A model generated the notes under the pieces. That model ran no database searches and was not told where the DNA came from. It was given only the letters and a program-made list of their open reading frames with translations. From Petrimonas sp. IBARAKI (GTDB lineage Bacteria; Bacteroidota; Bacteroidia; Bacteroidales; Dysgonomonadaceae): 64,000 nucleotides of DNA. A program made the position numbers and the translations under genes. The stretch is taken from NCBI GenBank assembly GCA_002356435.2, contig AP018040.2, positions 806,001 through 870,000 on the forward strand. Reading direction: 5' to 3'. Numbering within the stretch: position 1 is the stretch's first letter; every line of letters starts with the position of its first letter. This document shows, one piece after another, positions 31,965 through 63,904 of this stretch.

Positions 31965-33131
<1,167 letters not shown>

Positions 33132-33150
33132 TCAGGTTTACGATTGAGTG

Positions 33151-33186: not shown

Positions 33187-33256
33187 GTTTTTATTTTGAA
33201 ATATCGGGTATCGAGAGGGTTAATATCGATAAACAGCATCTTTGTGCCGATGGACC

Positions 33257-33287: not shown

Positions 33288-33297
33288 GGATAAATTG

Positions 33298-36684: not shown

Positions 36685-36789
36685 TGTTGTTTAATTTAAT
36701 TGTTTTATAAGATTGACAAAGATTGGTAAAGATGGATGGCGGGCTGCCTATGTTTCAATCTTATTCAATCTAGTTCGACCTTGTTCAAT

Positions 36790-38043: not shown

Positions 38044-38159
38044 AAATTAAGTTGTAATGTATAATAAAATTAAATTTTGTAAATATAATCAATTTTTGAA
38101 TATGCTCATCTTTTGTTGTGACTTGTTAAATACTTTTATTTTCTTTTGAGTTTTTCCGA

Positions 38160-39392: not shown

Positions 39393-39413
39393 TGAATAAT
39401 GATGAAAAAGTTA

Positions 39414-41471: not shown

Positions 41472-41589
41472 AATATTTTGATATTTTTTTCCAAGTTTTC
41501 GTTTGCTTTAACTAATGATGATCTTCATTTTCTTGTATACTGGTTGACTAGTCACAGTTGAGCCCTGTCCAGAAATTGATTTTTTTGGT

Positions 41590-42303: not shown

Positions 42304-42468
42304 GTTCGAAAATTTAAATTATGCTGATAATTTTACTCAACCAATTTGTCTGGTCAGGCTATTTTATCTGCCCATTTCAGGAAGCCAACTGAATAGCCCC
42401 AAGGTGCCTAAGTTTTATCCGGCAGGAATTGAAATATGTTCGTAATTAACACACGCGAAACTTAAACT

Positions 42469-42568
42469 GAATATTCGGAATTGCCGGTTTACATAAACAC
42501 ACTAGGAGAACTTATTAAAAATTCATCCTACGATCTATCATTGTAAAACGTGGCTATTCCGAATATTC
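42469..42568. repeat. 13-bp perfect inverted repeat spanning 100 bp
   Basis: GAATATTCGGAAT (42469-42481) and ATTCCGAATATTC (42556-42568) flank a 74-nt spacer without open frames. Each arm contains the palindrome GAATATTC. It lies between the GH109-like gene and the DUF1080 gene. No target duplication was found, so a regulator-site pair is as likely as a small mobile element. Confidence 0.5.
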
Positions 42569-42580
42569 TATAACGATTGG

Positions 42581-43933: not shown

Positions 43934-43942
43934 ACGTTTTTT

Positions 43943-45295: not shown

Positions 45296-45349
45296 ATTAT
45301 ATCAATTATTTGTTAGATAGTTTGGTCAAACTTTTGCTTATATTGACTT

Positions 45350-46261: not shown

Positions 46262-46395
46262 TAGAATTTATGTTTTATAAAGTTATTCCGGGTAGAATGG
46301 ATACTACAAACGGGTGCCTTACTAAAAAGAGCAATAAAGGTAAGTATTATTTTGCAGATGAGTTACAATCGAAATAAATAATTGCATATTTTTGA

Positions 46396-47526
46396 TTATA
46401 ACGACCCTGATCTTCCATCCATGTCGTTTTTGTTTTCGGGATAAAGGGGAAGCTTTATGGGTAAATTATCGCGGGTGGAGCGATAAATAGCCGTGAACAG
46501 TTCCACTGTCCTGCGTCCGTCCTCTCCGGTAACCAGGGGATCCCGGTTTTCGTCCAGGGCAAATAAAAAATCTTCTATTTGACGCTCCATGTAATGGGTC
46601 ATCGGATCGATGCTGCTAAAATGCCGGACATCTTCCATTTTCCATTTCTCCGCCAGCTCTTCTTCTCCGGGAATAGTCCAGAGGTCGTTTACCGGGGGTT
46701 TCAGAATCCCTTTCATCCCTGCAATAAACATGGCGCCACCATCGGTCTGGACACCCGCGGATGCGCCGTTTTCACCGTGCACATGTACTTTTCCGTAAAT
46801 TCCGGGTTTTTGCGAGTTGCTCACGATAACATTTCCTATTCCTCCGTTCCTGAATTTTATTACAGCCAATGCGGTATCCTCCACCTCGATATAAGGATGA
46901 TTCAGGTTTCTCCAGATGCCGTAAACTTCTTCCACCTCTCCCATAAACCAAAGCAGGATATCCAATTGGTGTGGCGCTTGATTTACCAGGACTCCCCCTC
47001 CTTCCGTTTTCCAGTTTCCCCGCCATTTATCGGCATCGTAATAGCTTTTGTCTCTCCAGCCCAGCATGTTAACGGTACCCAATACCGGTTTGCCTATCTT
47101 GCCGGCCTCAATGGCTTTTTTCACCCTCAATACGGGCTCATACCACCTGCGTTGACTGACTACTCCAAGCTTGACTCCCGCCTTTTTACAGGTTGAAATA
47201 ATTTTGTCAGCATCTTCCAGAGTCGATGCCAGTGGTTTTTCCACCAGGATATTGGCTCCTTGCAGGGCAGCTTGTTGTGCCGGCTCCAAATGAAACGGGT
47301 GAGGAGTACAGACGACAGCCAGGTTAATTTTTTCTTTTTTAATGAGCTCCGCCACATCGGTGTAGGCGGGAACTTTGTATTGACAGGCAAAGCCGTTTGC
47401 CGTTTGTTGGGTGCGGCTCCAGACCCCGGCTAGGCGGGCATTAGGCAGATTCTGTATTGCCGAAGCATGCAGGTGGGCCACTTTCCCACATCCCAGAATT
47501 GCGATATTGTAAACAGAATTTCTCAT
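46396..47526 (-). CDS. Cytoplasmic Gfo/Idh/MocA-family oxidoreductase
   Basis: 376 aa, no signal peptide. The Rossmann motif is ILGCGKVAHLH (third Gly replaced by Ala) and EKP is at 96-98, with GGGVLVNQAPHQLDILLWFMGE in the C-terminal domain. It starts 12 nt after the alcohol dehydrogenase stop. The two cytoplasmic dehydrogenases likely process sugars released by the exported enzymes. The substrate is not predictable. Confidence 0.85.
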   Translation of the reverse strand: MRNSVYNIAILGCGKVAHLHASAIQNLPNARLAGVWSRTQQTANGFACQYKVPAYTDVAELIKKEKINLAVVCTPHPFHLEPAQQAALQGANILVEKPLASTLEDADKIISTCKKAGVKLGVVSQRRWYEPVLRVKKAIEAGKIGKPVLGTVNMLGWRDKSYYDADKWRGNWKTEGGGVLVNQAPHQLDILLWFMGEVEEVYGIWRNLNHPYIEVEDTALAVIKFRNGGIGNVIVSNSQKPGIYGKVHVHGENGASAGVQTDGGAMFIAGMKGILKPPVNDLWTIPGEEELAEKWKMEDVRHFSSIDPMTHYMERQIEDFLFALDENRDPLVTGEDGRRTVELFTAIYRSTRDNLPIKLPLYPENKNDMDGRSGSL

Positions 47527-47538
47527 TTCGACATTGAA

Positions 47539-48570
47539 TTAGGGAATCAGGATCACTTTATTTATTCCCGCTTCCTTTCTGTAAAGCCGGTTAAACCATT
47601 CAGCACCCTCAGAAAGAGGTGCCACGGCCGATATCATGCCGCCAACGTCGATTTTGCCGGAAGCCATCAGTTCTAACACCGTTTCGTATTCGCCATTGAT
47701 AGCGCAACTTCCCAGAAGTGAAAGTTCTGTGGTTACAATTTTTTGCAGGGGGACAGTCACCTCGGGCATCAGGTTCCCTATCAGAATTGCTTTGCCTCCT
47801 TTGCGTAAACTGTTTATACACAGGTTTACAGTTTCCGAAACTCCTACTGCTTCAAAAGCCACATCTGCGTTCCGGCCTTTGGTTAGTTGTTGTATTTTCT
47901 CTGAAACGGTTTTATCGGAAGAGAGGAAAGTATGAGTCGCGCCGAAGGCCTTGGAAAGTTCTAATTTTTTTTCATCCATGTCGATAGCAATGATGGGATA
48001 TACACCTGCCGTCTGCAGCAGTTTTACAACAAACAGGCCAATGGTTCCCGTGCCGATAACCACGGCATTTTGTCCCAGTTGAATACCGGATACATTTACT
48101 GCATGCAGGGCTACAGCAACGGGCTCTACCATCGCGGCCTGCTCAAAGGAGACGTTGTCGGGAATCTTGTAAAGTATATGTGCCGGAACAGAAACGAGTT
48201 CGGCAAAAGCACCGTGTTTTGTATAATTCCCCGGGGAAACACCCAGGACTTTTCTATTGTTGCTGAGGTTGTAATGCCCCTGACGTGTGAACCAGTCATC
48301 GAGCGGATATATCGTGGAGTCGAAAGTAACCCTGTCACCCGCTTTCCATCCTGTGACCGCAGTGCCAACTTCCGTAATTATGCCTGCGGCTTCGTGCCCC
48401 ATGACCAACGGGGGGATTCTTCTTCCGGTGCTCCCGTCCATACCGTGGATGTCGCTTCCGCAGATTCCGCAGGCTTGAACCCTTATCAATACTTCGTCGG
48501 CTTCCATATGAGGATCAGGGAAATCACGATAATTCAACTCCATGTATTTGTCTAAAACCAATGCTTTCAT
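47539..48570 (-). CDS. Medium-chain zinc-type alcohol (polyol) dehydrogenase
   Basis: 343 aa from the ATG at 48570, chosen because the conserved MDR start MKALVLDKY begins there; the frame is open further upstream but without homology. The catalytic zinc ligands are Cys37 (GICGSD) and His59-Glu60 (GHEAAG), and GTGTIGLFVVKLLQ is the NAD fold. The structural-zinc loop (about 87-106) has no cysteines (YPLDDWFTRQGHYNLS), unlike typical sorbitol or threonine dehydrogenases. It pairs with the cytoplasmic Gfo/Idh gene. Confidence 0.85.
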   Translation of the reverse strand: MKALVLDKYMELNYRDFPDPHMEADEVLIRVQACGICGSDIHGMDGSTGRRIPPLVMGHEAAGIITEVGTAVTGWKAGDRVTFDSTIYPLDDWFTRQGHYNLSNNRKVLGVSPGNYTKHGAFAELVSVPAHILYKIPDNVSFEQAAMVEPVAVALHAVNVSGIQLGQNAVVIGTGTIGLFVVKLLQTAGVYPIIAIDMDEKKLELSKAFGATHTFLSSDKTVSEKIQQLTKGRNADVAFEAVGVSETVNLCINSLRKGGKAILIGNLMPEVTVPLQKIVTTELSLLGSCAINGEYETVLELMASGKIDVGGMISAVAPLSEGAEWFNRLYRKEAGINKVILIP

Positions 48571-48626
48571 AAAATAATACGATAGGGATTGTAAGTAGTC
48601 TGTTAGATACTCAAAATAATTATTTC

Positions 48627-50666
48627 TTATTTGTTCCTCACGGGGAAAACAGCAATTCGTAGAGTGCTGCATCCGTAGGGGATAAGCTCAATGTTTTCTT
48701 CCCCGCCAACATCCTCTCCCTGTTGAGTGAAATAAGGGACCGGGCCGGCCGACCCGTTGTATTCTTTCCATCCGGGCAGTCGTAATCCAGTTGTCCTTAT
48801 CGTAACGGGTGCATCTTGCAGGGTCCAGGGATAATCAGAAGCCCTGTTTTTTGTTTCAACAACAAAAGCTTTCCCAACATTTTCCTTGCTTAAGTTACGG
48901 ATAGGTAAGGCATAGTTCCAGGGAGAGTCGCTGGTAACCTGGTAATACCATTTTCCGTAACGTTTGGTTTCGTGGGGCTCAGTTGTTTTCTTTTGCCAGT
49001 TTTCATTCATCTTCAGCGCATACAGAAGTGGACCGCGTTCAACGGCCGCTCCGCCATCGTACCATCGGCTTATCGACACTTCCATGGGCAGGCGTAGAAC
49101 GACCTTGTCATTGCTTTTCCAGGCACGATCGATCCTTGCGATTTCACCTTGCCTTGTTTCTGCCGTAACCCCTTCACCGTTTATCGTTATTACGGGGTTT
49201 TTACACCATCGGGGAATACGCAGGTGGAACGGAAATTCTATTTCTTCTTCTTCTCTGTCCGGAAAATCGAAGGTAAAGGCGATGGTTTCCTCAAAAGGAT
49301 ACTGTGTGGACTCTTTAACGGTGATGAGTTGTCCATTTCCCACCCTTGCCGAGACCTCCGATGGGGCGTAAACCAGTGCGGCAATGCCGTTGTCGTTGGT
49401 TGCATACCAGAGATTCTGCGTAAACTTGGGCCACCCCTGATGCATGTTGGAGGTACAGCAGGGGTATCCGGTGAGTTCACCGAAAAGGTTGTCGGTATCG
49501 TGGTGGGGAGTCACGAAGTTCCGCATGTCCCGGCTGACTTTAACCTGGTTGACCTGCTGGTAATACTGTCGAGCGCCAAAATCGTCGGTGGTTTGAGTGG
49601 GTAAGGCATTATAGGCAATTTTTTCGAGGTGGTCCGCCCATTGCACATCCCCGGTAACCTGTAGGATACTCTCCAGCGAATACATCATCTCCACTGCGGT
49701 GCAAAGCTCAGAACCTTGAACGGGATTTCCAAAACGGAGCAATTCGTCGCCCGCCCATAATCCGATGGGCAATCCGATGGTGTTGCGCATATCCCGGACA
49801 GCTTTTTTTACCGCTTCGAGCAGTTCAGGATTTTGATTCTGCTGGAAATAGATAGCCGGTTCTTTAAATCCCTGTCCGAGATTTACACAATGTAAGCTGT
49901 GCTGTCGCGATAGATGATCCTGACGGAGGAATACATCCGTCCAGTTGAATGTCTGTTCGTGGATCAGCTCACCCAACTCGAGCAAAAAAGGATCTCCCGT
50001 AATGTTGTACAACCAATAGGCCATCATCAGGTTATCTCCTCCGCGCTGTTCTCCCCAGAATGTCCAGTTACCCAACGGCGTGTTCGGCAACTCCTTCAAC
50101 TGATATTTGAAATAATTTGTCATAAAGGGAATTATCCGTTTATCCCCGGTTGCGGAATAGTATTGCTGCATTACTTTCAGCATCACCATTTTAGGCCACC
50201 AGTCGTGAGCGTTGTTTCGTTGCAGGCCTTCTTCGGGTTCCCGGTCGGTATCCGGGCCAAAGTATCCGTTTGGCTTTTGCGATGCCAACGTCCACTCAAT
50301 CCAGGGCTGCACTTTCTTTTTTAATTCCGCATCGTTCATGATATAGGCGAGCGGCAAGAGTCCGTCAATCCAGTACGGCCCTCGTTCCCACACGTCTCCG
50401 TCACCGCCCAGCCATCCGTTTCTCTGTCCGGCGACCTGCGGGTAAATGGAGTCCAGATGTCCTGTCATTCCTGTCCGCATCCGGTTCAATTGTTCTTTGA
50501 GCCACCCTTGAGGGCGGATAGCTCCGACGGGCAGTTCGATATAGGTTTTACCGGTCAGCGGGGCACGGTTGCCGGGGTAGTTAGGTGGTTGTCCGGAGTT
50601 ACTTCCTTGTGAATGAGTGCCCGGGATCAGGAAGACCGAAATAAGGATGGCAATTAAATGTCTCAT
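48627..50666 (-). CDS. GH127-type beta-L-arabinofuranosidase-like exported enzyme
   Basis: 679 aa with a signal peptide. The (alpha/alpha)6 barrel of the DUF1680/GH127 family is followed by beta domains. Zinc and catalytic residues by comparison with Bifidobacterium HypBA1 appear as E320 and C322 (SELC) and C403-C404 (YPCCTSN). The family removes beta-L-arabinofuranose from glycoproteins or pectins. It lies 10 nt before the stop-to-start boundary with the next GH127-type gene, so they may form an operon. GH146 is an alternative family assignment. Confidence 0.8.
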   Translation of the reverse strand: MRHLIAILISVFLIPGTHSQGSNSGQPPNYPGNRAPLTGKTYIELPVGAIRPQGWLKEQLNRMRTGMTGHLDSIYPQVAGQRNGWLGGDGDVWERGPYWIDGLLPLAYIMNDAELKKKVQPWIEWTLASQKPNGYFGPDTDREPEEGLQRNNAHDWWPKMVMLKVMQQYYSATGDKRIIPFMTNYFKYQLKELPNTPLGNWTFWGEQRGGDNLMMAYWLYNITGDPFLLELGELIHEQTFNWTDVFLRQDHLSRQHSLHCVNLGQGFKEPAIYFQQNQNPELLEAVKKAVRDMRNTIGLPIGLWAGDELLRFGNPVQGSELCTAVEMMYSLESILQVTGDVQWADHLEKIAYNALPTQTTDDFGARQYYQQVNQVKVSRDMRNFVTPHHDTDNLFGELTGYPCCTSNMHQGWPKFTQNLWYATNDNGIAALVYAPSEVSARVGNGQLITVKESTQYPFEETIAFTFDFPDREEEEIEFPFHLRIPRWCKNPVITINGEGVTAETRQGEIARIDRAWKSNDKVVLRLPMEVSISRWYDGGAAVERGPLLYALKMNENWQKKTTEPHETKRYGKWYYQVTSDSPWNYALPIRNLSKENVGKAFVVETKNRASDYPWTLQDAPVTIRTTGLRLPGWKEYNGSAGPVPYFTQQGEDVGGEENIELIPYGCSTLRIAVFPVRNK

Positions 50667-52554: not shown

Positions 52555-52632
52555 TGTTAATAGATATTATGGCTGAGGATATTTTCCGGTATCAAAGATA
52601 ATTATTTTTCGTTTGAAAACTGAAAAAACGAC

Positions 52633-52670
52633 AAAAAGGGTTGTCAACAATACAGTTAACGACCCTTTTT
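52633..52670 (-). terminator. Terminator of the ribosyl-scavenging operon
   Basis: AAAAAGGGTTGT (52633-52644) and ACGACCCTTTTT (52659-52670) form a 12-bp stem with one mismatch. It ends in T runs on the minus strand (CCCTTTTTGTCGTTTTTT) and could also work on the plus strand. It lies about 160 nt after the sugar permease stop, beyond the MITE-like element. Confidence 0.7.
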
Positions 52671-52686
52671 AAGAAAGAATGAAAAT

Positions 52687-52827: not shown

Positions 52828-53835
52828 TTATTGTCCGGCATAAATGATGGAAATAATGCCTAAGATGAACAGGATAAACATCCATATTAACAGCTTGTTG
52901 GTTGCTTTCGAGGAGTTTTTAAACTCTTTCCAGATAAACACACCCCAAAGTGCTGCCACAAGAGTAGCACCTTGTCCTAAACCATAGGATATGGCTGCAC
53001 CGGCTTTTCCTGCTGCGATGTAACTAAAAGCCGTACCAACTCCCCAAATAACGCCTCCCAATACTCCTACCAAATGCGTTTTTAAATTGCCTTTAAAATA
53101 CTGGGAGTAATTGACAGGATTTCCCACAAATGGTTTTCTCATTACCAGGGTATTGAGAATGAAATTGCTTGCTAATATCCCTATCGAGAATATAAAAAAC
53201 GCGCCATAAGGAGTCAGCATGCCTTCGGTAGGGTTTTCTAAATTTGTCAAATCCATTGCAGAAGCCACGAATCTATAAAAAAAGGACATCAGGAATCCAG
53301 CAATGATTGCGATAATAATTCCTTTTTTCCTTGTCTTTTGTTCCTCGGTTCCCTTGCTCATTCTACTTGAGGCAATGCCGTTCATTATGATCGCAGTGAC
53401 AACCAGGAGAACACCTAGGAATAAAATGACGGGATCGCCTTTTGGTGCACCGAAGTAGTTGATAAAAACGCCCAAAACAAGTGCCAGGCCTACACCCACC
53501 GGGAAAGCAACAGACATTCCGGCCAAAGAGATAGAAGCGGAAAGTAATATGTTGGAAGCATTGAAGATAATTCCTCCTGTAAATGCACTCCAGAAACTTT
53601 TCGGATTTACTTGCGTAATATCATCAATAAACCCTCGTCCTTGTTCACCTATGCTTCCGAGGGTAAAACCAAAGATGATTGAAAGGAGCACGATTCCGAT
53701 TACGTAGTCCCAATAAAACAACTCGTACCGCCAAGTTTTAGCGGCTAACTTTTGTGTGTTTCCCCAAGAGCCCCAGCATATCATGGTTACGACACATAAA
53801 ATTACGGCTAATAAATAATTACCTACTATAAACAT
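52828..53835 (-). CDS. GRP-family (GlcU/RbsU-like) sugar permease
   Basis: 335 aa with about ten membrane helices. The fold of the drug/metabolite transporter superfamily is seen, with the N-terminal MICWGSWGNTQKLA and repeated GxxG-rich helices (GGVIWGVGTAFSYIA, GLGQGATLVAALWGVF) typical of glucose/ribose porters. As the last gene of an operon with ribokinase and ribosyl hydrolases, ribose is the best guess for its cargo. It is similar in kind to RusT of Bacteroides ribose-utilisation loci. Its start lies 88 nt from the GH127-type gene. Confidence 0.78.
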   Translation of the reverse strand: MFIVGNYLLAVILCVVTMICWGSWGNTQKLAAKTWRYELFYWDYVIGIVLLSIIFGFTLGSIGEQGRGFIDDITQVNPKSFWSAFTGGIIFNASNILLSASISLAGMSVAFPVGVGLALVLGVFINYFGAPKGDPVILFLGVLLVVTAIIMNGIASSRMSKGTEEQKTRKKGIIIAIIAGFLMSFFYRFVASAMDLTNLENPTEGMLTPYGAFFIFSIGILASNFILNTLVMRKPFVGNPVNYSQYFKGNLKTHLVGVLGGVIWGVGTAFSYIAAGKAGAAISYGLGQGATLVAALWGVFIWKEFKNSSKATNKLLIWMFILFILGIISIIYAGQ

Positions 53836-53923
53836 ATCCTTTGAAATTAAATTAGTTATTTGTTCATCAAGTCAAATACACCTCTCCACGTTTTGTAGGG
53901 ATGTTGATTAATTTCTTTCATTG

Positions 53924-55780
53924 TTATTCTTTTATCAGGGGCAACCATGTGCATACGTGCGAATCCTCCCAACAGTTCACAGAGGCATAATCTACCATAC
54001 GTATGTTGCCTTTCGTGGTAGGTACGATAAACTCCATGCGGGCATCGGAACGGGTGGGTGTTGTTTTAGTCACTTTCACCACGCCACGCTTGTTCTCTTT
54101 AATTTTTGTTGGCTGATTGAATGTGGGATCGATGTTTTCATCGCGCGCCAATACAATGGGCCCCCAAGTAACCGCCTGGAAGTTTTCGCTTCCCGGAGCG
54201 CTTCCTTGAGGTCCGTCTATCACTCTGGCAATCATTTCAAACTCTATTTCGATGCGATCGTTATTTTTCCATTCACGATCAATAATCGCATACTGTCCCG
54301 ATTCCACCTTTAGGCTTTTACCGTTCACTTTCACCTTATTTTTCTTACTCCATTCAGGTATTCTTATCTGCACCGCGAACCTCTCGGCTTTTTCGGGGTT
54401 CACATGGATTTTCACTTTTCCCGAATGAGGATAATCGGTCTCAATCTTCAATCCCAAAGCTTGTCCTTTCGGCGTAGTGGCATTTACATCCGCCGCATTG
54501 TAGAGGTTGATAACCGGTCCGCGCTCGGAGTTGGTCACAGCGATAAGCGGGATATACGACAAACCTACCGGACCACTCAGGTTACAGCAAGTAACAAGCA
54601 AACCATTGAAGCTACGTCCCCAGCCACTGGCATTTACTTTTTTCCCGTTGAGCAGGTTAGCATAACTAAATCCATCCCCGGTAGGCTTCATGGCACCCAG
54701 CAACCCGTTATATATATATCTTTCGATTTGGTCCATCGGAGAAGACTCCCCGGTTAACCGCATCAATTGGCTGCAGTACTTCATCCATGTAACACCCACG
54801 CAGGTCTCCATCATTCGCTTGATGTTCGGGTGGGTTTGTTCAAGAGCGGTGTTAGTCCATGCCTCTCCATTTACTTTCGGAAAATAAGGCTGATCGGCTC
54901 CTCCATTGCCGATAATGGTCATCTCTTTCGTACGCACATTATTGTAGTAGTTGTCTAACATGCGCTTCACTTCAGGTTTCCCCGTTACGCGGTAATACTT
55001 TGCCAACCCCTCAAACAGAGATGTTATCTCGTATGCTTTGGGATAGGTTCCTGCCATCTTGTAGGGCTCAACGTTGTTGTATGCATTTTCGAACAAGTCA
55101 TGATTTTTCGCTCCTCCCGCTTCGATAATATAGGTTGCAAAATCGAGATACCTTTGGTAGCCCGTCATTTGGTAGAGTCTCATAATCGGCTCAAGTATCG
55201 TGCTCGACTCAATTTTCTCGGAGCTCCATCCCATTTGATTAATTGGTGATTTTGGAGCCGGACCAACTTGGTCAATAACACAGTCTGCCTGACGAATAAG
55301 GCTTTGAAGAACAGCTGGATCGTGGTTTACCCAATCGTAATAATCCATCAGTCCAAGCATAACGTATTTCCGCTCCCATATATCTCCTGTGGCGCTTTCA
55401 GGTTGCTTTTCTATTGGCGAACAACTGATACTTCCATTCGGGCGTTCGGTAGAGAGCAAATCCTTAACGGTTTCATCCAATATTGTTTTCAGTTCGGGAT
55501 CTTGGGTGTAACGATAGAACAAGCTTGCCGACCGGGTTGCCTTACCCCACATCTCACCCAGTGCGAACTGGGTCCTTCCCACGCGAAACAAATCAACGAA
55601 AGTGGCGTAAGGGAGTACACCCTTATTCCAATTGACCAGGGAATTTTGTATGTCGTTTTCCAAATTCCCATGTAGTTTTATGGAATTTGGGGCTAATGGA
55701 AACTGTTGGTCTTTTACCTGCGAAAACAGTGTTGCTGATAAGCTAAAAAGTAAAATAATAAATATAGTGTTTCGTAGCAT
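53924..55780 (-). CDS. GH127-like (beta-L-arabinofuranosidase-fold) exported protein
   Basis: 618 aa with a signal peptide. It is divergent from the two GH127-type proteins upstream, but the key residues remain: E326 and C328 (METCVGVTW) and C398-C399 (VTCCNLSGPVG), expected to bind zinc and act in catalysis. A C-terminal beta domain follows. It lies inside the ribokinase/ADP-ribosylglycohydrolase operon, 49 nt from its neighbour, so its substrate may be a pentofuranoside other than arabinose, such as a ribofuranoside. That is inference from context. Confidence 0.72.
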   Translation of the reverse strand: MLRNTIFIILLFSLSATLFSQVKDQQFPLAPNSIKLHGNLENDIQNSLVNWNKGVLPYATFVDLFRVGRTQFALGEMWGKATRSASLFYRYTQDPELKTILDETVKDLLSTERPNGSISCSPIEKQPESATGDIWERKYVMLGLMDYYDWVNHDPAVLQSLIRQADCVIDQVGPAPKSPINQMGWSSEKIESSTILEPIMRLYQMTGYQRYLDFATYIIEAGGAKNHDLFENAYNNVEPYKMAGTYPKAYEITSLFEGLAKYYRVTGKPEVKRMLDNYYNNVRTKEMTIIGNGGADQPYFPKVNGEAWTNTALEQTHPNIKRMMETCVGVTWMKYCSQLMRLTGESSPMDQIERYIYNGLLGAMKPTGDGFSYANLLNGKKVNASGWGRSFNGLLVTCCNLSGPVGLSYIPLIAVTNSERGPVINLYNAADVNATTPKGQALGLKIETDYPHSGKVKIHVNPEKAERFAVQIRIPEWSKKNKVKVNGKSLKVESGQYAIIDREWKNNDRIEIEFEMIARVIDGPQGSAPGSENFQAVTWGPIVLARDENIDPTFNQPTKIKENKRGVVKVTKTTPTRSDARMEFIVPTTKGNIRMVDYASVNCWEDSHVCTWLPLIKE

Positions 55781-55829
55781 AACTTTTTTAAATTGTATTG
55801 AATTTATAATAAACAGAGTGGATGGTAGA

Positions 55830-57542
55830 CTATAGATTCTCTATGCGTACATCACTCCAGTATGCGGCCTCCCATGCCCACCCGTTTGCTTTATTCTCAA
55901 GGTCTATTTTGACATTTTTATTTCCTGCAAAGGGAGTTAGGTCAAATTCAACATCTAACCATCCGTTTTCATCTACGGTATCCTTCCCGATGGTCACCTC
56001 TTTTTGTATAGAACCGTTGACCCGAATAACCAGTAGCCAATCGCCTCCGTTATGGTGAGACACCTGAGTCTTAAGAACTGTCTTCTTCCCATTGGGAATG
56101 TCTACAACTCGTGTTAGCACGCAAGGCATATCTTTAGATAAAGGATGCGTAAGAAGCACGTTGTTTTTTCCTTTGTAGGTCTCGCGGAGTCCCGGCTGCA
56201 TATCGGAGCCGCAAAAAGCGATTATCCATCCCGGGAATCGTTGGTCCAGATCACCTTGAATATTCACCATGGCTAAATGTTTAATCTTCTCCATTTCTTT
56301 TTCCGTGAAAAGAGAGTTGGCTATCGGTTCCGGATCCCAACTAAACACCAATGGACTTGGAGTGGGTGTTTTAACGGGAATCACAAATACTTCTTCTCCG
56401 TTTGAATCGGTCTCTACACGTCCACCTTCTTGCACAACGTATTCTCTGGCAAGCTTTTCGCAAACGTCAAGCAATTTCGGGAAATTGTAAGGCGTGTGGG
56501 AGAATTTGGTTTCCTGGTCAAGATTTTCCTTGAATCGGTCTGGCAGGTTCGACGTACCCATGGTGGTAAACAACACACCTGCTGCATTTGAAGGGTTGCA
56601 ATCGGAGTCTTGTCCACAACGGGTAGAAATAATAATTGTCTGGTCTATATCCTTCTCTCCGTAAAGCATACCGATAAGGATATATGCTCCATTTATTTTC
56701 ACATCTATACCACCGTTTGAGTTCTTTTGGTATTCGGGATTTCTCCGATACTTTTCCTGACATAACTCCCAAGTGGCTTTCCAATCGGTCGGGTTGGCCT
56801 TGTACCATGAAACCACGTCGCGTACCATCTCGGCATATTGGCATCCCTCGGGGATACATGCTAACCCTGCCTCGATGATTTTTATGATATCATCTTCAAA
56901 AAACGCTTCACTATACATACCGCCGACAAATTGCCCCGCATACACACCGTCGCTGTAATTCATCAGTCGTCCGAATGTATCACCCAAGGCTATCGGCACA
57001 TTGGGCATTCCGGGGGCGATAAGACCGGAGTAATCGGCTTCTATTTGATAGTCAATATCATGAGGGTTGTTGCTGAAAGCCGGATGACTGCAATCGGGAG
57101 GGGCAATCCCCATGCGCAGGTTGCGTCTGCCGGTCTCATTAGCACACCATAAAGGGTATTCCGTATTTGCGAAATCAATACCTGCCTGACGGATAGAAAC
57201 ACTTATGCCATACTCTTCCAGAGAACGCAAGAAGGTCATTTCCACATAGAGGTCGTCTTGATTAAAAGCTTCATTAATCATTTCATGGCCCCATAGTGGC
57301 ATCTCCTCTAAAGGGATAATTTCGTCTTTCCACTTGAATTCGGTGGGGGCAGCCCAACTAACCCCCACTATCTGGCCGAGCCAGCCTGCCTGTAATTTAT
57401 CTCGATATTCCCGGACGGGTAGCCTCCGGTATTTTATGTCAAGATCGTTTTTTCGTGTTAAGGAGGTACATCCCGTCAAGCTCATTGTGAAGATAATAAC
57501 AGCTATTTTTAAAATTGTTTTCCGAATTCTTAAAAGGATCAT
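55830..57542 (-). CDS. ADP-ribosylglycohydrolase-family lipoprotein with C-terminal beta domain
   Basis: 570 aa. A lipoprotein signal ends at Cys25 (SLTGC). The ADP-ribosylglycohydrolase core (about 45-330) contains NQDDLYVEMTFL and the magnesium-binding motif TRCGQDSDCN (DSDCN at 312-316). A C-terminal beta-sandwich (about 425-570) is extra to the family's usual 300-350 residues and may bind sugar. Export makes protein de-ADP-ribosylation in the cytoplasm unlikely; hydrolysis of a ribosyl link outside is a better fit. It is operonic with ribokinase. Confidence 0.82.
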   Translation of the reverse strand: MILLRIRKTILKIAVIIFTMSLTGCTSLTRKNDLDIKYRRLPVREYRDKLQAGWLGQIVGVSWAAPTEFKWKDEIIPLEEMPLWGHEMINEAFNQDDLYVEMTFLRSLEEYGISVSIRQAGIDFANTEYPLWCANETGRRNLRMGIAPPDCSHPAFSNNPHDIDYQIEADYSGLIAPGMPNVPIALGDTFGRLMNYSDGVYAGQFVGGMYSEAFFEDDIIKIIEAGLACIPEGCQYAEMVRDVVSWYKANPTDWKATWELCQEKYRRNPEYQKNSNGGIDVKINGAYILIGMLYGEKDIDQTIIISTRCGQDSDCNPSNAAGVLFTTMGTSNLPDRFKENLDQETKFSHTPYNFPKLLDVCEKLAREYVVQEGGRVETDSNGEEVFVIPVKTPTPSPLVFSWDPEPIANSLFTEKEMEKIKHLAMVNIQGDLDQRFPGWIIAFCGSDMQPGLRETYKGKNNVLLTHPLSKDMPCVLTRVVDIPNGKKTVLKTQVSHHNGGDWLLVIRVNGSIQKEVTIGKDTVDENGWLDVEFDLTPFAGNKNVKIDLENKANGWAWEAAYWSDVRIENL

Positions 57543-57584
57543 TATTTATAATTTAAAGTAACAGCAAATATGCACTTTGAGGTT

Positions 57585-58514
57585 TTACAGGTAGATGTTG
57601 TTTTGATTTAAAAAGGTGACAATGTCCTGTTCATCGGGTATTGAAGGCTGTGCTCCAAGTGAGGTGACACATAGCGCTGCCGCTGCAGTTGCATAAATAA
57701 GTGCTTGTTTAATTTCGCTGTATTTCCCAATTCCGACTGCAAGAGCCCCACAGAAAGTATCTCCCGCCGCGGTGGTATCTTTTACCTGTACCTTGAATGC
57801 TGGAATCTTTAACCAATCAGTGCCGTTGCTGTATATGCATCCGCTACTGCCAAGGGTGAGGATCACGTTTTTCACCCCTTTCTCTAAAAGAGTTTTTACC
57901 ATTTCCTCTTCACCAATTTGCTCAATTTGGCATTTGCTGATGGTTTCTGCTTCAGTTTCATTCACCACCAGCATATAAATGGACTGTAAAATCTCATCTT
58001 CAATACTGTAAGCGGGAGCGGCATTTAAGATTACTTTTGTATGCCCCGTTGATATTTTGCAAATCGTCTTTACTGTTTCATAAGGAATTTCCATTTGAAG
58101 CAAAATAGTATTGGCCTGAATGAGGCGGTTGGAGTGGGGAATGATATAATCGGAGGAGAGGTATTGGTTGGCACCCGGAATCACAATGATGCTGTTCTCT
58201 CCGTGTTTATCTACCCAGATTGAGGCAGTCCCAGTGGTGACATTCTCCTTTACAAGAGCAAGCGATACATCTATCCCTTCCTTGTTATAATAAGCCAAAG
58301 CATTTTTCCCATTGAGATCGTTTCCTACGCAAGTGATGAAACTTACGGCTCCGCCTGATCTGCAGGCTGCAACCGCCTGGTTGGCCCCTTTGCCTCCCAT
58401 GGCTTGTGTAAAAGACAATCCTTCAAGGGTTTCCCCTCCTTTGGGGAAATGATCCGTAGTTACGATATAGTCCAAGTTTGAACTTCCTATAACGACAATT
58501 TGATTCTTTTGCAT
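57585..58514 (-). CDS. rbsK: Ribokinase (PfkB family)
   Basis: 309 aa. The N-terminal PfkB motif is AMGGKGANQAVAAC (GGKGAN at 40-45). The C-terminal motif DTTAAGDTFCGALAVG supplies the catalytic Asp252. Both closely match ribokinases, which phosphorylate ribose at O5 using ATP. Its place among two ADP-ribosylglycohydrolase genes, a phosphodiesterase and a GRP-type permease points to ribose catabolism. No deoxyribose- or fructose-specific features were recognised. Confidence 0.9.
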   Translation of the reverse strand: MQKNQIVVIGSSNLDYIVTTDHFPKGGETLEGLSFTQAMGGKGANQAVAACRSGGAVSFITCVGNDLNGKNALAYYNKEGIDVSLALVKENVTTGTASIWVDKHGENSIIVIPGANQYLSSDYIIPHSNRLIQANTILLQMEIPYETVKTICKISTGHTKVILNAAPAYSIEDEILQSIYMLVVNETEAETISKCQIEQIGEEEMVKTLLEKGVKNVILTLGSSGCIYSNGTDWLKIPAFKVQVKDTTAAGDTFCGALAVGIGKYSEIKQALIYATAAAALCVTSLGAQPSIPDEQDIVTFLNQNNIYL

Positions 58515-58612
58515 ATTATATATAAGATTTGACCCTGAAATGATATTCAGGTTGGTAATGATCCCGATTATTTTTGTTAGCTTATGTCGTACGGTTTAAA
58601 AAAAGTGATTTC

Positions 58613-59692
58613 TTACCACAATTTCAACGTGATGTGACGGTCCTTCCCACATATACAATTTGAGAATTCAACGTCGGTGCCGGTAGGGATGGTTGCACGC
58701 AACACCTGATTCGGATATAACGGCATTGGGTACATATACTCCCCATACTTGATTTCATAAGCGATATCGCTGAGATTGGTGATCTCGATCATCCCATTTT
58801 TCTCGTTAATCACTCTCACAGAAAGTGAAGCTTTGATAAGGGATTTCAGTAATCCTTCATCTCCTGACAAAACATTGTTATAGAATGCCAGGGTTCTGCC
58901 CGAAAACATCGCGTCCTTAACTCCCTGTTCGGTATAATCTTTAGCAAATACCAGGGTCATTGGACGCATTAACTTCCCCCTGTAGAGGTTGGCACTGGTG
59001 TAGTGAATATCAGAGTTGGATATGGGAGCCAGATTAAACTCCTGACACCAGTCAATAACCTTCGGATAAGCCTCCCAACCATTAAAAACTTCTATTCCGT
59101 GAATTTTCTGCTTTTCAATTAATTCTCTATGAATAGGGTACATTGTGCTTTTATCATCCGGCCAACCGGGATGATTCCATAAAATAAAACCACCTTGTTT
59201 CATTGCCTCATCGATCGCTTCAATCGCATCCGGACGCTCAAGCTTGTTCGCATCTTGAATAAAAAGGGCGTTCAGGTGACCCAGCGGTTTCTGACGCGTA
59301 ATTTCTGCTCCTTTTATTACCAGCATCCCAATGGCATCTCCCTGGGCTTTTGCGATTTCATAGGATTTGTTGTGATCGCTGATCAATATTTTCTTATTGG
59401 CCCGGTATTCAATATGGTCCGTTATGGCTATTACGTCCAGACCTTCATTCCAGGCTTCCTTGACCCGTTGGTCTGGCCAAACTTTTCCATCGGAAAAAAC
59501 GGTATGCACGTGAAAATCACATTTCAGCGTTTTGTATCCGTCAATATCGGGTATTCTGATGTTGTATCGATAATCCTGACTGTTTAAATTCGGATATTCG
59601 TAGACCTCATCGTTTTGGACCTGGGCAGTACTGTTGAAAAAAAAACTGAGGAACAAACAGATGTAAATGTAAGGAAGTGCTTTTGTTTTCAT
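58613..59692 (-). CDS. Exported PHP-domain phosphodiesterase (Sb-PDE-like)
   Basis: 359 aa with a signal peptide. The PHP metallo-hydrolase motifs are CDFHVHTVFSDGK (His-x-His), AITDHIEY, and later LWNHPGWPDD and ISNSDIHY. The layout matches the exported Sb-PDE family, reported to split phosphodiesters. A C-terminal beta domain (about 285-359) follows. In this operon it could cleave a phospho-ribosyl substrate (ADP-ribose, NAD or nucleotides) before sugar uptake. The family assignment is firm; the substrate is inferred. Confidence 0.8.
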   Translation of the reverse strand: MKTKALPYIYICLFLSFFFNSTAQVQNDEVYEYPNLNSQDYRYNIRIPDIDGYKTLKCDFHVHTVFSDGKVWPDQRVKEAWNEGLDVIAITDHIEYRANKKILISDHNKSYEIAKAQGDAIGMLVIKGAEITRQKPLGHLNALFIQDANKLERPDAIEAIDEAMKQGGFILWNHPGWPDDKSTMYPIHRELIEKQKIHGIEVFNGWEAYPKVIDWCQEFNLAPISNSDIHYTSANLYRGKLMRPMTLVFAKDYTEQGVKDAMFSGRTLAFYNNVLSGDEGLLKSLIKASLSVRVINEKNGMIEITNLSDIAYEIKYGEYMYPMPLYPNQVLRATIPTGTDVEFSNCICGKDRHITLKLW

Positions 59693-59775
59693 ATATTCAT
59701 TGTATTTTTCTTACAACGTGAATTTATTTTTTGATTAAATTGTAGATGTGATTTTTTTCTATCCTTTATGACTGA

Positions 59776-61323
59776 TTAATAATAAATTAATTTCCCCGGT
59801 TTGTTTTTGGAATATTCAATCACATCCTGTGTTTCTATTCGGTATCCGTCAGGGATTTCTTTGGCTTTTAATGTGATGTTGTTTTCGCCCTCCTTCAAAT
59901 CATAATTCCAGGTAAGCTCATGGCGTCTTACGCGATTATCTGTGGGGATTTTTGCCACTTCATACAAGTTGCCGTTGATATATACTTCGATTTCCAGGAC
60001 AACGTCGGGCAGGTTGTTATTCTTCATAGCCCTGCCTCCCAAAACAAAACCTGAACCATTGATCTTGAATGTTACTTCTCTGTTTTTACGGGTAAGACTG
60101 CTTCCAATCCTTCTTCTCTCAACCGGATACAACCCTTCAAAGCTCTTTTCAAAAGGAACAGGTTCTGGTTGCTGGTATTTGATGGTGAACATATCTCCAT
60201 CCAGTCGTCCACCGTTTCGGACGATCATTTCTCCCGCATGACGTAAACCTGTTTCGTAGACCTTGTTGAGGGACATCTCGGTGTGTGCAAAATTTAAATC
60301 CTCTACTTTGTCCAATCCCTGTTTCCAATATGCCGGTATCTTGTCGTACCCGATCATTGTTCCTAGAATTCCGGCAGCATTGGCCGGATTACAGTCTGAA
60401 TCGTACCCGCATCGCGTACTGATATCAATAGTCGCGCCATAATCACCCTTGCCATAAAGTAAGCCAATAACAATATATGCACCGTTGATTGTAGCATCAA
60501 TGTTGAAAGGCATAAAAACTCCGTCCGGACAACCGATATCTGATGTCCATTTTTTTTGTGCCTCAAACCACGCCTTCTTCCAGTCATTCGGATCTTCACG
60601 ATAACACTGTATCATATCGGCAATGCATTGATAGTAGTTGCTCTGCTTAGGGATAGATTTCAAAGCTTCTTCCACAATGAATTCGATATCATTATGCACA
60701 AAAGCCAGTGCATACATGGCCGCCACATAAATCCCGCCGTATACTCCATCGCCATAATTCATGATATGCCCAATTCTCCAGCCAATCTCTGATGCGGCAT
60801 TGACCATTGCCGGAGACATCAACCCGGCAAAATCGGCTTCAATCTGGAAATCAATATCATCGGCATGTGGATTGTTTTTCCAATGTCCTGACTCGGGTGG
60901 CATGATACCGTTCAGGATATTGTATCTGGCAGCCTGGTTTGCATGCCATAACGGGTAGCCTGCATTGGCAAAGTATTTTGCATGTAATGAGTCGGGTGCG
61001 TCCAGTCCATACTTGTCAAAGACCTGTACAAATGTTAAATCCATATAAACGTCGTCATACAAGCCCGGGGAATTTTTGTAATACCACGACATGCGTGAGC
61101 CGTCCCAGGGAATGCCGATCTCTTCTCCGATCATTGTCCCGTTCCATTTGAACTCAGTAGGGCCACCGTAGGTACATCCAATTACCTGGCCTGCCCAACC
61201 TCCTTTGATTTTATTCAGCAGCTCTCCTTTGCTGATTTTATAATCTTTTGCAAACGTGTCGCCCACATTGCACGATAAAAGGGCAATCGCACCATAAAAG
61301 AAAAAAAGCTTAAGTTGATTCAT
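59776..61323 (-). CDS. Exported ADP-ribosylglycohydrolase-family protein
   Basis: 515 aa with an N-terminal signal (up to about residue 25). The ADP-ribosylglycohydrolase core includes LYDDVYMDLTFVQVF near residue 90 and the metal motif STRCGYDSDCNPANAAG near 300, nearly identical to its operon partner. A shorter C-terminal beta domain ends the protein. It is the first gene of the operon, directly under the promoter and palindromic operator at 61377-61419. Two exported paralogues in one operon suggest a two-step or two-substrate system. Confidence 0.85.
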   Translation of the reverse strand: MNQLKLFFFYGAIALLSCNVGDTFAKDYKISKGELLNKIKGGWAGQVIGCTYGGPTEFKWNGTMIGEEIGIPWDGSRMSWYYKNSPGLYDDVYMDLTFVQVFDKYGLDAPDSLHAKYFANAGYPLWHANQAARYNILNGIMPPESGHWKNNPHADDIDFQIEADFAGLMSPAMVNAASEIGWRIGHIMNYGDGVYGGIYVAAMYALAFVHNDIEFIVEEALKSIPKQSNYYQCIADMIQCYREDPNDWKKAWFEAQKKWTSDIGCPDGVFMPFNIDATINGAYIVIGLLYGKGDYGATIDISTRCGYDSDCNPANAAGILGTMIGYDKIPAYWKQGLDKVEDLNFAHTEMSLNKVYETGLRHAGEMIVRNGGRLDGDMFTIKYQQPEPVPFEKSFEGLYPVERRRIGSSLTRKNREVTFKINGSGFVLGGRAMKNNNLPDVVLEIEVYINGNLYEVAKIPTDNRVRRHELTWNYDLKEGENNITLKAKEIPDGYRIETQDVIEYSKNKPGKLIYY

Positions 61324-61376
61324 GAGAATTCAGTTATTGGGTGTATAATTTTGAGTCGAATCCGTTATCAGTTGTG

Positions 61377-61407
61377 CAAATATAGAGTAAAAAAAATTTA
61401 TGAACAA
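61377..61407 (-). promoter_or_regulatory. Promoter of the ribosyl-scavenging operon
   Basis: The minus strand has TTG (complement of 61405-61407), a 20-nt gap and TATATTTG (complement of 61377-61384). This matches the Bacteroidetes -33/-7 consensus exactly, giving a leader of about 50 nt before the ATG at 61323. Confidence 0.75.
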
Positions 61408-61419
61408 ACGTTTGTTCAT
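61400..61419. promoter_or_regulatory. LacI-family operator, perfect 20-bp palindrome
   Basis: ATGAACAAACGTTTGTTCAT is a perfect palindrome with the central CG and AACGTT-like core usual for LacI-family operators. It covers the -33 TTG of the operon promoter, so binding should repress. The lacI-type gene is divergent, its start 322 nt away. A half-site-like ATTTGTTCAT lies at about 53855, before the permease. Confidence 0.82.
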
Positions 61420-61666
61420 TTTTTGAGAAAAAAACAGCCGATTTCAGTAATTGATTTATAGTGTATGGAGCAATTGCAAACCTTTTATGTGTATAGTTGG
61501 CTGATAAATAGCATTATACGCTTGATTTCGTGATTGTTGAAAGTATATTCAAAAGTCAACATGATAGACGAATGATGCAAATTGTTTATCTGTGTAACCT
61601 CATTATTTGCATGGAATCTTATTGAGATTTTGGGTTGTGCTAACGATTGAGCATTACTGATTTTAT
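61420..61666. other. Non-coding divergent region between operon and LacI gene
   Basis: No gene is supported here. The only structure noted is ATGCAAAT (61575-61582) with ATTTGCAT (61605-61612), a weak inverted repeat. It would be free to hold leader sequence or a second site of the regulator. Confidence 0.5.
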
Positions 61667-61696
61667 TTGTATATTGATTAATATTACTTACTTTTG
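61667..61696 (+). promoter_or_regulatory. Promoter of the LacI-family gene
   Basis: TTG (61667-61669), a 19-nt gap and TACTTTTG (61689-61696) match the Bacteroidetes consensus. The gene would be read from about 61703. Confidence 0.7.
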
Positions 61697-61740
61697 ACCA
61701 GAATTTCTTTTTTTGATGGGTAGAACAGATAGATTATATA

Positions 61741-62775
61741 GTGAAAACGCCGGAAGACATGAGCAATCATAAAGTGAGTATTACTGACATAGCAAAAAAA
61801 GCCGGACTCTCCACGACCACCGTATCAAGGGTCATTAATGGTAAAGGTGAACAATACCGCATCAGTAAAGTTTCACAGCAGAAAGTTCTGGAGGTAGCCA
61901 AAGAGATGCGGTATGTACCGAACCTTTACGCGGCCAATCTCCGTACGGGGAAAAGCAATACCGTTGCGCTTATCGTCCCCTCTTTAAGCAATCCGTTTTT
62001 TGCTGCCATAGCTAGCGGACTGAATGCAGAGATCAGGAAATACGGATATATTACCATTATCAGCGATAGTGATGAGAACTTTGAAAACGAGAAAAAAGAG
62101 TTGGAGCAGTTGAGTGCTAGAAATATTGAGGGGTTGATTATTGTTCCTTCCGGAAATCAGTGGAGGCATATAAAAGAGCTCTATGATCAACAATTGCCCA
62201 TTATTTGTATTGACCGGTATTTTGAAGATTTGGATTTGCCCTATGTCTCTACGGATAATTATGATGGAGCATTTCATGCTACAAAGTATCTCATTAATAA
62301 CGGACATGTATCCATAGCCTGCATACAAGGTGTCAAGGAGTCAACGCCAAACCGGTTGCGGGTAAAGGGATTTAAAGAGGCGCTTGAACAATCGGGTATC
62401 CGTGATTATTGGGTTGTTGGAGATGATTTTACTATACAGAACGGATACCTGGAAACGAAACTCCTGATGCAGCAGAAGGTAAGGCCAACAGCCATATTTA
62501 CCTTAAGCAACACCATTGCAATGGGGTGTATAAAGGCATTGAAAGAGGAAAATATACGCATACCGCAGGATGTCTCCATTATAACATTTGATGAACACCC
62601 CTATCTCGATTATCTATCAACGCCTCTCTCGTGTGTAGCCCAACCCGTAAATGATATCATCCGGATTGCGGTTAAGTTTCTTTTTTCAAAACTGGAAAAC
62701 AAGGATATGAATGCGATCAAGGTGCTTTTAAAACCCAAAATCATAATTAAGGATTCGGTCAAGACAATATTATAA
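61741..62775 (+). CDS. LacI-family transcriptional regulator
   Basis: 344 aa from the GTG at 61741; the ATG at 61759 (MSNHKVSITDIA) is equally or more likely and keeps the whole DNA-binding domain. The helix-turn-helix is VSITDIAKKAGLSTTTVSRV (about 12-31) with hinge LYAANLRTGKSN. The rest is a periplasmic-binding-protein-like sensor (FTIQNGYLETKLL, ITFDEHPYLDYL). It lies divergent from the ribosyl-scavenging operon with a perfect LacI-type operator between them. It is probably a repressor relieved by a sugar such as ribose. Confidence 0.93.
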   Translation: MKTPEDMSNHKVSITDIAKKAGLSTTTVSRVINGKGEQYRISKVSQQKVLEVAKEMRYVPNLYAANLRTGKSNTVALIVPSLSNPFFAAIASGLNAEIRKYGYITIISDSDENFENEKKELEQLSARNIEGLIIVPSGNQWRHIKELYDQQLPIICIDRYFEDLDLPYVSTDNYDGAFHATKYLINNGHVSIACIQGVKESTPNRLRVKGFKEALEQSGIRDYWVVGDDFTIQNGYLETKLLMQQKVRPTAIFTLSNTIAMGCIKALKEENIRIPQDVSIITFDEHPYLDYLSTPLSCVAQPVNDIIRIAVKFLFSKLENKDMNAIKVLLKPKIIIKDSVKTIL

Positions 62776-62857: not shown

Positions 62858-63904
62858 CTATCTGGCACTTTCGATCATGGAAAGAATATTCTCCAGGGGT
62901 GTTCCTGCCTGAATATTGTGGCAGGAACAACAGATGTAACCACCATTCTTGCCCAGGGTCCTGACACATTCCCGTGTCTCTTCCGCCACTTCTTCTGCTG
63001 TGCCCATGGGCAGTATTTTCTGGTTCTCCACGCCACCGTGAAAGATCAGTTCATTTCCGAAGGCCTCCTTAAGTGCCGAACGATCCATACCGGGACATAC
63101 ATGTTGTATAGGGTTCAGAATATCAATGCCACATTCAATCAGTTCAGGTATCAATGGCAGCACGGCCCCGTCGGTATGATACAATACTTTTTTCCCATGC
63201 CGGTGAATCAGGTCACACCACCCTTTTAGCCGGGACTTGAAATGTGTCCTCCAGGACTCCATCGGAATTAGCATGTTGCTTTGCATACCCATGTCGTCAC
63301 TGATAAAAACGATATCAAGCGAATCGTCCATTTCCGTTAACATTCGTTCCAGCATTGCGGTTTGAATGGCATCAATCTTCTCCAGGGCAGCATCGAGAAA
63401 ATCAGGATTGATGATCGTGTCCAGCAAAGCATTTTCCAACCCCCGCATCTGACAATAAATTTCGAAGTGTGATATCCAGGGCCCTATGGTGGCAAAATCC
63501 CAGGCACGGGCCTCCAGGGCAGCTTTTTTTGCCCCGGCATAATCAAATTTGTCCGGGTTGGGCCATAAGGGATAGCTCTCCAGTTGGGAGGGGGAGTGGT
63601 AGTCGGCAATCGGAGGATTGATGTATTCCTGGTAGGTAGCCAGTCCGGCCTTGGTCATGCGTGTGGGAACCCCCCACATGGTGATCTCCCCACTGTCGTT
63701 GGGGTCGAAAAAGCGGCCTGCATATCCGGGGAAGATCCATACGATCTTGTCAATGCCCAGTGCATGATAGACAGCCAGCTCATCCTGTAGGCCGGTATGT
63801 TCACGCAAAACATTCAGGATTTCCGGGGTACACCAAATGTCCACCGGCGTCCGGTCCACGGGTCGGCGGTTGATGGTAGAAAGAATTCGTTCTCTTGGAG
63901 TCAT
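62858..63904 (-). CDS. URO-D/MtaA-like methyltransferase-family protein
   Basis: 348 aa. The N-terminus MTPRERILSTINRRPVDRTPV and the later HRHGKKVLYHTDGAV, NPIQHVCPGMD and FHGGVENQKILPMGTAEEV are typical of uroporphyrinogen-decarboxylase-fold proteins of the MtaA/CmuA-like catabolic branch, not of HemE. Such enzymes move methyl groups to or from corrinoid proteins. No corrinoid protein gene is in the window. It is convergent with the LacI gene (82-nt gap) and seems unconnected with the ribosyl operon. A role in demethylating a substrate is possible. Confidence 0.75.
   Translation of the reverse strand: MTPRERILSTINRRPVDRTPVDIWCTPEILNVLREHTGLQDELAVYHALGIDKIVWIFPGYAGRFFDPNDSGEITMWGVPTRMTKAGLATYQEYINPPIADYHSPSQLESYPLWPNPDKFDYAGAKKAALEARAWDFATIGPWISHFEIYCQMRGLENALLDTIINPDFLDAALEKIDAIQTAMLERMLTEMDDSLDIVFISDDMGMQSNMLIPMESWRTHFKSRLKGWCDLIHRHGKKVLYHTDGAVLPLIPELIECGIDILNPIQHVCPGMDRSALKEAFGNELIFHGGVENQKILPMGTAEEVAEETRECVRTLGKNGGYICCSCHNIQAGTPLENILSMIESAR

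Follow-up and report, generated by a model that had tools for sequence, protein, structure and literature searches.

The rus locus of Bacteroides thetaiotaomicron contains ribokinases, a nucleoside hydrolase and an enzyme of the ADP-ribosylglycohydrolase (ADPRGH) type. According to two reports, the locus corresponds to BT2803-2809 with the RusT permease as the proposed importer of free ribose (PMC12596196), and it permits nucleotides and nucleosides to serve as carbon sources (PMC11699363). The present analysis concerns a six-gene operon and a divergent lacI gene of Petrimonas sp. IBARAKI, located in a 64-kb stretch of contig AP018040.2 (the window, to which all coordinates refer). The published rus loci are the closest known system, and the operon is a compact variant of them. 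Compared by their descriptions rather than by protein sequences, the two share a ribokinase, an ADPRGH-type enzyme and a sugar permease, whereas the Petrimonas operon has no SusC/SusD or nucleoside hydrolase and encodes two ADPRGH proteins (ADPRGH-A and ADPRGH-B), a PHP-domain protein and a GH127-like protein, accompanied by a LacI-family regulator. This resemblance, proposed in an earlier sequence-only reading of the window, is supported here. Searches of a limited literature library on ADPRGH with ribokinase, on Bacteroides ribofuranosidases and on ADPRGHs in polysaccharide utilization loci (PULs) brought up no enzymology of this group among the papers listed. The favored explanation, held with moderate confidence, is that the operon scavenges ribose under LacI repression and is a compact form of the Bacteroidetes rus type, combining riboside hydrolases of the ARH fold with a permease and a ribokinase. 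The features were assigned as follows, the proteins by Pfam and NCBIfam profile scans.

61741-62775, plus strand: divergent LacI-family regulator (PF00356 and sugar-binding domains)
61400-61419, no strand assigned: putative LacI operator, perfect 20-bp palindrome ATGAACAAACGTTTGTTCAT (unique in the genome, core present in related loci)
61377-61408, minus strand: Bacteroidetes-type promoter TTTG-N20-TATATTTG, TTTG box within the operator (motif pattern and phase in relatives)
59776-61323, minus strand: ADPRGH-A, putative riboside hydrolase of ARH/DraG fold, probably exported, C-terminal beta domain (PF03747, 127 bits; lipobox LLSC)
58613-59692, minus strand: PHP-domain metallohydrolase with signal-like N-terminus (PF02811 over cut-off; PDB 3e38, E 5.1e-79)
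57585-58514, minus strand: ribokinase (PfkB; TIGR02152 over cut-off; ribokinase structures, best 1e-62)
55830-57542, minus strand: ADPRGH-B, second ARH/DraG-family protein, putative lipoprotein (PF03747, 82.4 bits; lipobox LTGC)
53924-55780, minus strand: divergent GH127-like protein with signal-like N-terminus (PF07944, 122.4 bits, and PF20736)
52828-53835, minus strand: GRP-type sugar permease, probable ribose permease (PF07168, PF06800; recurrence beside ribokinase and ADPRGH-A)
52622-52671, minus strand: intrinsic-terminator-like hairpin with T tract, 3' of the permease gene (folding, z -5.45)

The list of open reading frames (ORFs) places the six minus-strand genes and the divergent lacI exactly where the sequence-only reading had put them, with intergenic gaps of 83, 98, 42, 49 and 88 nt (the 42-98 nt that it gave), and the profile scans agree with the protein families that it named for all six genes and LacI. 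The distance from lacI to the first operon gene is 417 bp and that from the last operon gene to the next co-directional gene is 273 nt; the six genes are presumably carried on a single transcript. N-terminal sequences, read by eye and with a lipobox pattern, suggest export of the two ADPRGHs, the PHP protein and the GH127-like protein, and both ADPRGHs are probably lipoproteins. The two are the only PF03747 genes found in the 3.69-Mb single-contig genome. Pfam scanning of the operon, lacI and downstream genes revealed no adjacent SusC/SusD pair, the pair by which a PUL is recognized.

The ribokinase-permease-ADPRGH core in related genomes

Relatives of ADPRGH-A were found at 121 loci, of which 80 named loci were kept. 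Gene neighbors were counted by direct BLAST of these loci, since clustering missed genes lying under overlapping ORFs, and the neighbor families were named from cluster representatives. Near ADPRGH-A, a ribokinase was present in 41 loci, a permease in 40, SusC in 25, a nucleoside hydrolase in 21, LacI in 18 and a PF00756-type esterase in 13; clustering gave 40, 38 and 16 for ribokinase, permease and LacI. Among the loci no shorter than 20 kb (43 in total), 29 had a ribokinase and 26 a permease (28 and 25 by clustering). SusD was detected in 22 loci by clustering and in 10 by BLAST with one representative. Matches to ADPRGH-A at E<=1e-20 occur in 51 of 393 genomes sampled from the order, own genome included. 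Based on the recurrence counts, the ribokinase-permease-ADPRGH association is the core of these loci. Since ribokinase and permease recur beside ADPRGH-A relatives, the ribose-centered pathway of the sequence-only reading is supported.

The core is also found in loci of different composition. The locus of Bacteroides xylanisolvens XB1A (L084) encodes proteins with 43% (LacI), 44% (ribokinase), 53% (best ADPRGH) and 66% (permease) identity to those of the window and has an operator-like site with 2 mismatches; unlike the window operon, it contains SusC/SusD and esterases, and BLAST found no PHP or GH127-like gene. Aquirufa loci L054, L060 and L061 and a locus from a Cytophagaceae metagenome-assembled genome (L059) share the three-gene core with no SusC/SusD found within 4 kb, but differ from the window operon in that a nucleoside hydrolase is present and no PHP, GH127-like or ADPRGH-B gene was found. 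A recurrent longer locus was also observed (L084, L087, L080, L085, L093, L103) containing ribokinase, SusC, SusD, three ADPRGHs, two PF00756-type esterases and permease, the first ADPRGH being a divergent type of ~650-670 aa. Directly after ADPRGH-A, loci L042 and L043 carry a gene of the URO-D cluster, to which the gene at 62858-63904 of the window (URO-D/MtaA-type, its end adjoining the end of lacI) also belongs.

The palindrome, promoter and terminator

The palindrome upstream of the operon is exact over 20 bp. The genome holds a single perfect site for the inner 18 bp, with five more at 3 mismatches, and the same 18 bp read backwards as a control gave zero sites, results that agree with the one palindromic operator claimed previously. 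The promoter was called with the form TTTG/TAnnTTTG, which we take to be that of Bacteroidetes promoters, because the count of sigma-70-type promoters was uninformative (27 matches versus 28.5 expected, the chance level). The palindrome's downstream half contains the TTTG box of this promoter. The pattern alone discriminates weakly, with 4 occurrences in the window against a shuffle mean of 1.33 and at least 4 in 5 of 100 shuffles. The single strong promoter of the sequence-only reading is most plausibly a Bacteroidetes-type promoter overlapping the palindrome.

Ten of 17 related LacI-operon regions contain the operator core when up to 2 mismatches are allowed, versus 7 of 500 random 230-bp windows; the random windows are mostly coding, and the regions are 91-537 bp long and in some cases overlap an annotated ORF start. 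With at most 1 mismatch, all 80 loci together yielded 8 intergenic matches versus 0-2 for shuffled palindromes, two of the 8 (L092, L107) not lying beside such genes. The phase is also shared: TTTG starts 19-20 nt from TAnnTTTG and occupies position 7 within the 12-bp core in the window and in seven related loci (L033, L037, L038, L039, L040, L044, L175), of which L038 and L175 carry an identical string. A Bacteroidetes-type promoter with its TTTG box inside a palindrome, in a geometry kept in seven related loci, is new here. The shared phase and the enrichment of the operator core in relatives therefore support a model in which LacI, by binding the palindrome, would cover the upstream TTTG box and repress the operon, in line with the LacI control proposed earlier. 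The regulator scored 253.5 bits against the RbsR-type NCBIfam model, below the cut-off of 382. If correct, the model offers a concrete mode of repression, operator over TTTG box, for a phylum whose promoters are of a distinct type.

A consensus scan listed no minus-strand terminator after the last operon gene. Folding of 52620-52680 (minus strand) gave -18.7 kcal/mol (z -5.45), with none of 200 shuffles equally stable, consistent with the one terminator of the sequence-only reading.

The encoded proteins and their probable substrates

The AlphaFold model of ADPRGH-A (predicted local distance difference test score, pLDDT, 93.9) was compared with solved structures. Residues 30-367 superposed on ARH3 with Z 32.8 and a root-mean-square deviation of 2.5 over 297 aligned residues at 14% identity, and the catalytic domain is accordingly modeled as an ARH3 fold. 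The fold is shared with human and coelacanth ARH3 and with R. rubrum DraG (Z ~27.6-32.8), although identity in the fold alignments is only ~13-17%. Searching solved structures with the sequence of either ADPRGH alone was uninformative, whereas a profile and the ADPRGH-A model did find matches. Among the structures matched by the catalytic domain were PDB 8xks_Q and 8xqw_G, from Orf2971/Ycf2-FtsHi motor complexes (Z 29.0 and 27.8), which shows an ARH-like fold there. Residues ~400-506 are similar to the beta domain at the N-terminus of family-2 carbohydrate esterases (Z ~10); since this is a common fold, no function can be assigned to the C-terminus. ADPRGH-B was assigned to the ARH/DraG family by PF03747 only, its model being mediocre (pLDDT 74.4). 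Its close relatives are few, with 83% (L033), 74% (L172) and 74-75% (L045/L175, one gene) identity; in the 393 genomes, the matches listed besides its own gene were at most 43% identical and largely at ADPRGH-A sites.

Both proteins retain the acidic metal residues of ARH/DraG enzymes, namely Glu, Asp-Asp and Asp-x-Asp. In ADPRGH-A these are E57, D90, D91, D308 and D310, invariant in 65 of 65 alignment rows and aligned by profile with those of MJ1187 and DraG. The neighbors of the metal site differ. Position 311 of ADPRGH-A, following Asp-x-Asp, is Cys in 62 rows, with two rows having Asn and one Ser; the five solved chains shown have Thr/Ser there, a residue with a ligand role in ARH/DraG enzymes. 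At position 89, before Asp-Asp, 53 of the 65 rows have Tyr and 8 have Phe, compared with Thr for the MJ1187 and DraG chains shown. ADPRGH-B has the same Cys, with Gln before Asp-Asp. The window proteins further differ from ARH/DraG enzymes in being probably exported and, for ADPRGH-A, in the C-terminal beta domain.

The PHP protein contains the motifs HVH at 61, DH at 92, AEITR at 129, NHPGW at 173 and SDIH at 227, the His, Asp and Glu residues of which presumably bind metal, and scored 75.2 bits against the CehA/McbA model NF038032, just under the cut-off of 80. The GH127-like protein matched GH127 structures (best 3.2e-27) and retains ETC at 325 and CC at 398, the Glu and three Cys of which are taken to be the GH127 zinc-cysteine site; Pfam did not match the GH127 C-terminal domain, and the score of 146 against the aceric acid hydrolase model is far below the cut-off of 950. 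The kinase exceeds the cut-off of the ribokinase equivalog TIGR02152 (319.2 versus 299.65) and has no second close match in the genome, the next having 26% identity.

In the favored explanation, the two ARH-fold proteins would hydrolyze the ribosyl bonds of small ribosides outside the cytoplasm at a two-metal site, releasing D-ribose, while the PHP and GH127-like proteins might strip other groups, such as phosphate or other furanosyl residues, from the same or neighboring substrates. Since the operon has no SusC/SusD, the substrates are expected to be small enough for general porins or to be cut at the surface. Ribose would enter by the GRP permease and be converted by ribokinase to ribose-5-phosphate, and a ribose-type ligand would free LacI from the palindrome over the TTTG box. 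The ADPRGH probably acts on ribosides other than nucleosides, because nucleoside hydrolases are extra in 21 of the 80 loci and the esterase, DUF4434, acetylesterase and phosphoesterase-type partners vary; a fucosidase is also among the partners.

Several observations weigh against this explanation. BLAST detected no ribokinase at 39 of the 80 loci, a number that includes short contigs, nor at 14 of the 43 long ones. Seven of the 17 LacI-operon regions are without the operator core within 2 mismatches, and the promoter phase is present in only 5 of the 17 (L037, L038, L039, L044, L175) and at only 3 of 9 operator sites (L033, L040 and one L044 site). Because the metal-site neighbors differ from those of solved ARH enzymes, catalysis by the ADPRGHs may also differ. 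The operon has no nucleoside hydrolase, a frequent member of such loci; PF01156 was found in the genome only at G000:C1:1442005. The PHP and GH127-like genes are near ADPRGH-A in only 1 of the 80 loci (L033), and strong relatives of the GH127-like protein sit in other contexts. Both genes are local additions to the core.

The fixed chain starting with the PHP protein, as drawn in the sequence-only reading, was not supported. As a general feature it was rejected, since PHP relatives at E<=1e-60 occur in 56 of the 393 genomes, own genome included, yet lie beside ADPRGH-A in only one of the 80 loci, L033. The same result bears on the idea that the operon is specific for ADP-ribose, NAD or (poly)ADP-ribosylated material, in which case the PHP protein would split the pyrophosphate and the ADPRGHs the ribosyl bond before import and phosphorylation of ribose. 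The ARH3 fold of the ADPRGH-A catalytic domain with its conserved acidic metal residues and the presence of the PHP gene in the operon are in keeping with this specificity; however, the search of the order listed no PHP match near an ADPRGH-A match in other genomes (many assemblies being fragmented), Cys replaces the Thr/Ser of solved relatives, and the variable partners suit varied ribosides over one cofactor. Such specificity is quite unlikely, and the substrates ADP-ribose, NAD and poly-ADP-ribose named earlier, while possible, found no specific support.

The PHP gene would also fit a ribosyl phosphodiester polymer or oligomer (capsule-like, teichoic-acid-like or RNA fragments), with the PHP protein cutting phosphodiesters and the ADPRGHs ribosyl bonds. 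Other ADPRGH-A genes have PF00149 and DUF4434 (L164), PF04185 (L062) or a sulfatase/phosphodiesterase-superfamily protein (L059) beside them, but these phosphoesterase neighbors are isolated cases of different families, the operon is without SusC/SusD for oligomer import and the PHP activity is only putative, making a substrate of this kind very unlikely. As an observation in its own right, the occurrence of phosphoesterase-type genes of unrelated families at these three loci hints at phosphorylated ribosides.

The GH127-like gene, together with two more GH127 genes just downstream of the operon, raises the further alternative that the substrate is a furanoside of plant or microbial origin containing other pentoses (for example beta-L-arabinofuranosides), the GH127-like protein being the main enzyme and ribose secondary. 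GH127-like relatives occur in 21 of the 393 genomes, own genome included. Four stretches around such relatives contain genes for GH106 rhamnosidase, apiosidase-like, phosphodiester-glycosidase-type and FAD oxidoreductase proteins. One relative lies in a SusC/SusD-type locus with the GH106 rhamnosidase, which is consistent with this alternative; no ribokinase was recognized in the four stretches, where three scanned genes were without Pfam match. Conversely, the kinase is a ribokinase by the curated model, Pfam and NCBIfam identified no arabinose catabolic gene among the six operon genes, a relative of the GH127-like protein was found in only one of the 80 related loci (L033), and the downstream GH127 genes lie past the terminator hairpin. 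Locus L099 carries a GH127 relative that is nearer to those downstream genes. A furanoside of other pentoses as main substrate is accordingly considered unlikely.

Returning to ribose scavenging as the favored explanation, a broader proposal is advanced tentatively and with some doubt: the exported ARH-fold proteins may constitute a new ribofuranosidase family of glycoside hydrolases, recruited from the ADP-ribosylhydrolase fold and freeing ribose from non-nucleoside ribosides, and compact operons of the present kind, without SusC/SusD, may be dedicated small-riboside scavengers across Bacteroidota in which the LacI operator has merged with the promoter's upstream box. If true, a group annotated as 'ADP-ribosylglycohydrolase' in gut and environmental Bacteroidota would become testable extracytoplasmic ribosidases, and the operon would provide a compact six-gene system for finding which ribosides bacteria eat.

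SusC/SusD in related loci and genes downstream

Ribokinase, permease and ADPRGH are all present in 36 loci, 22 of which show 4 kb past both ends. No SusC/SusD match was found within 4 kb in 17 of these 22 (16 of 21 by clustering), a count that depends on a single representative each of SusC and SusD and is biased towards SusC/SusD-free loci because those bearing SusC/SusD are longer; of the 14 with a shorter flank, 8 have a SusC or SusD match. For 16 of those 17 the long ORFs in the flanks were listed; two of these ORFs were scanned (L074, L062), and neither was SusC or SusD. Since three-gene loci without SusC/SusD are common by this biased count, the absence of SusC/SusD looks ordinary for the three-gene core. 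The sequence-only reading was therefore correct that the operon has no SusC/SusD, although this is not a distinguishing feature.

The nearest relative, L033, contains SusC, SusD, two DUF-type genes, ADPRGH-A (85% identity), PHP (80%), ADPRGH-B (83%) and GH127-like (87%) genes. A second locus in the same genome (L172) contains LacI, nucleoside hydrolase, ribokinase, permease, ADPRGH-B (74%), SusC and SusD. The window operon looks like a compact union of what that genome splits over two SusC/SusD loci. Loci L045 and L175, stretches of one contig, comprise LacI, nucleoside hydrolase, ADPRGH-A fragments, ribokinase, permease, ADPRGH-B, SusC, a 659-aa SusD-cluster gene and ADPRGH-A (66%). The fragments, at L175:10720-11564 between the ribokinase and nucleoside hydrolase genes, are two short matching ORFs of a seemingly broken ADPRGH-A copy.

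In the tree, ADPRGH-A clusters with L033, L034 and L035 (four rows, support 100); the placement of ADPRGH-B was not trusted, its long branch being flagged by the program. Because the tree neighbors of ADPRGH-A all have SusC/SusD adjacent, loss or re-arrangement of SusC/SusD in the lineage of the window is suggested, loss being the simplest reading though not proven. Comparison of 460 bp around the first-gene start and lacI with eight loci gave matches of at most 38 bp, the best at the operator, and no SusC/SusD remnant. The genome contains no close relative of the L035 SusD, with matches at 34 places (best E 3.4e-22) of at most 38% identity over parts; SusC was not searched.

Downstream of the operon, minus-strand genes at 31965-50666 encode a 3-keto-disaccharide hydrolase, several Gfo/Idh/MocA oxidoreductases (one with a GH109 C-terminal domain), a xylose-isomerase-like protein, AXE1-type esterases and GH127 proteins. 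This region looks like a cluster for oxidative (3-keto) glycoside degradation.

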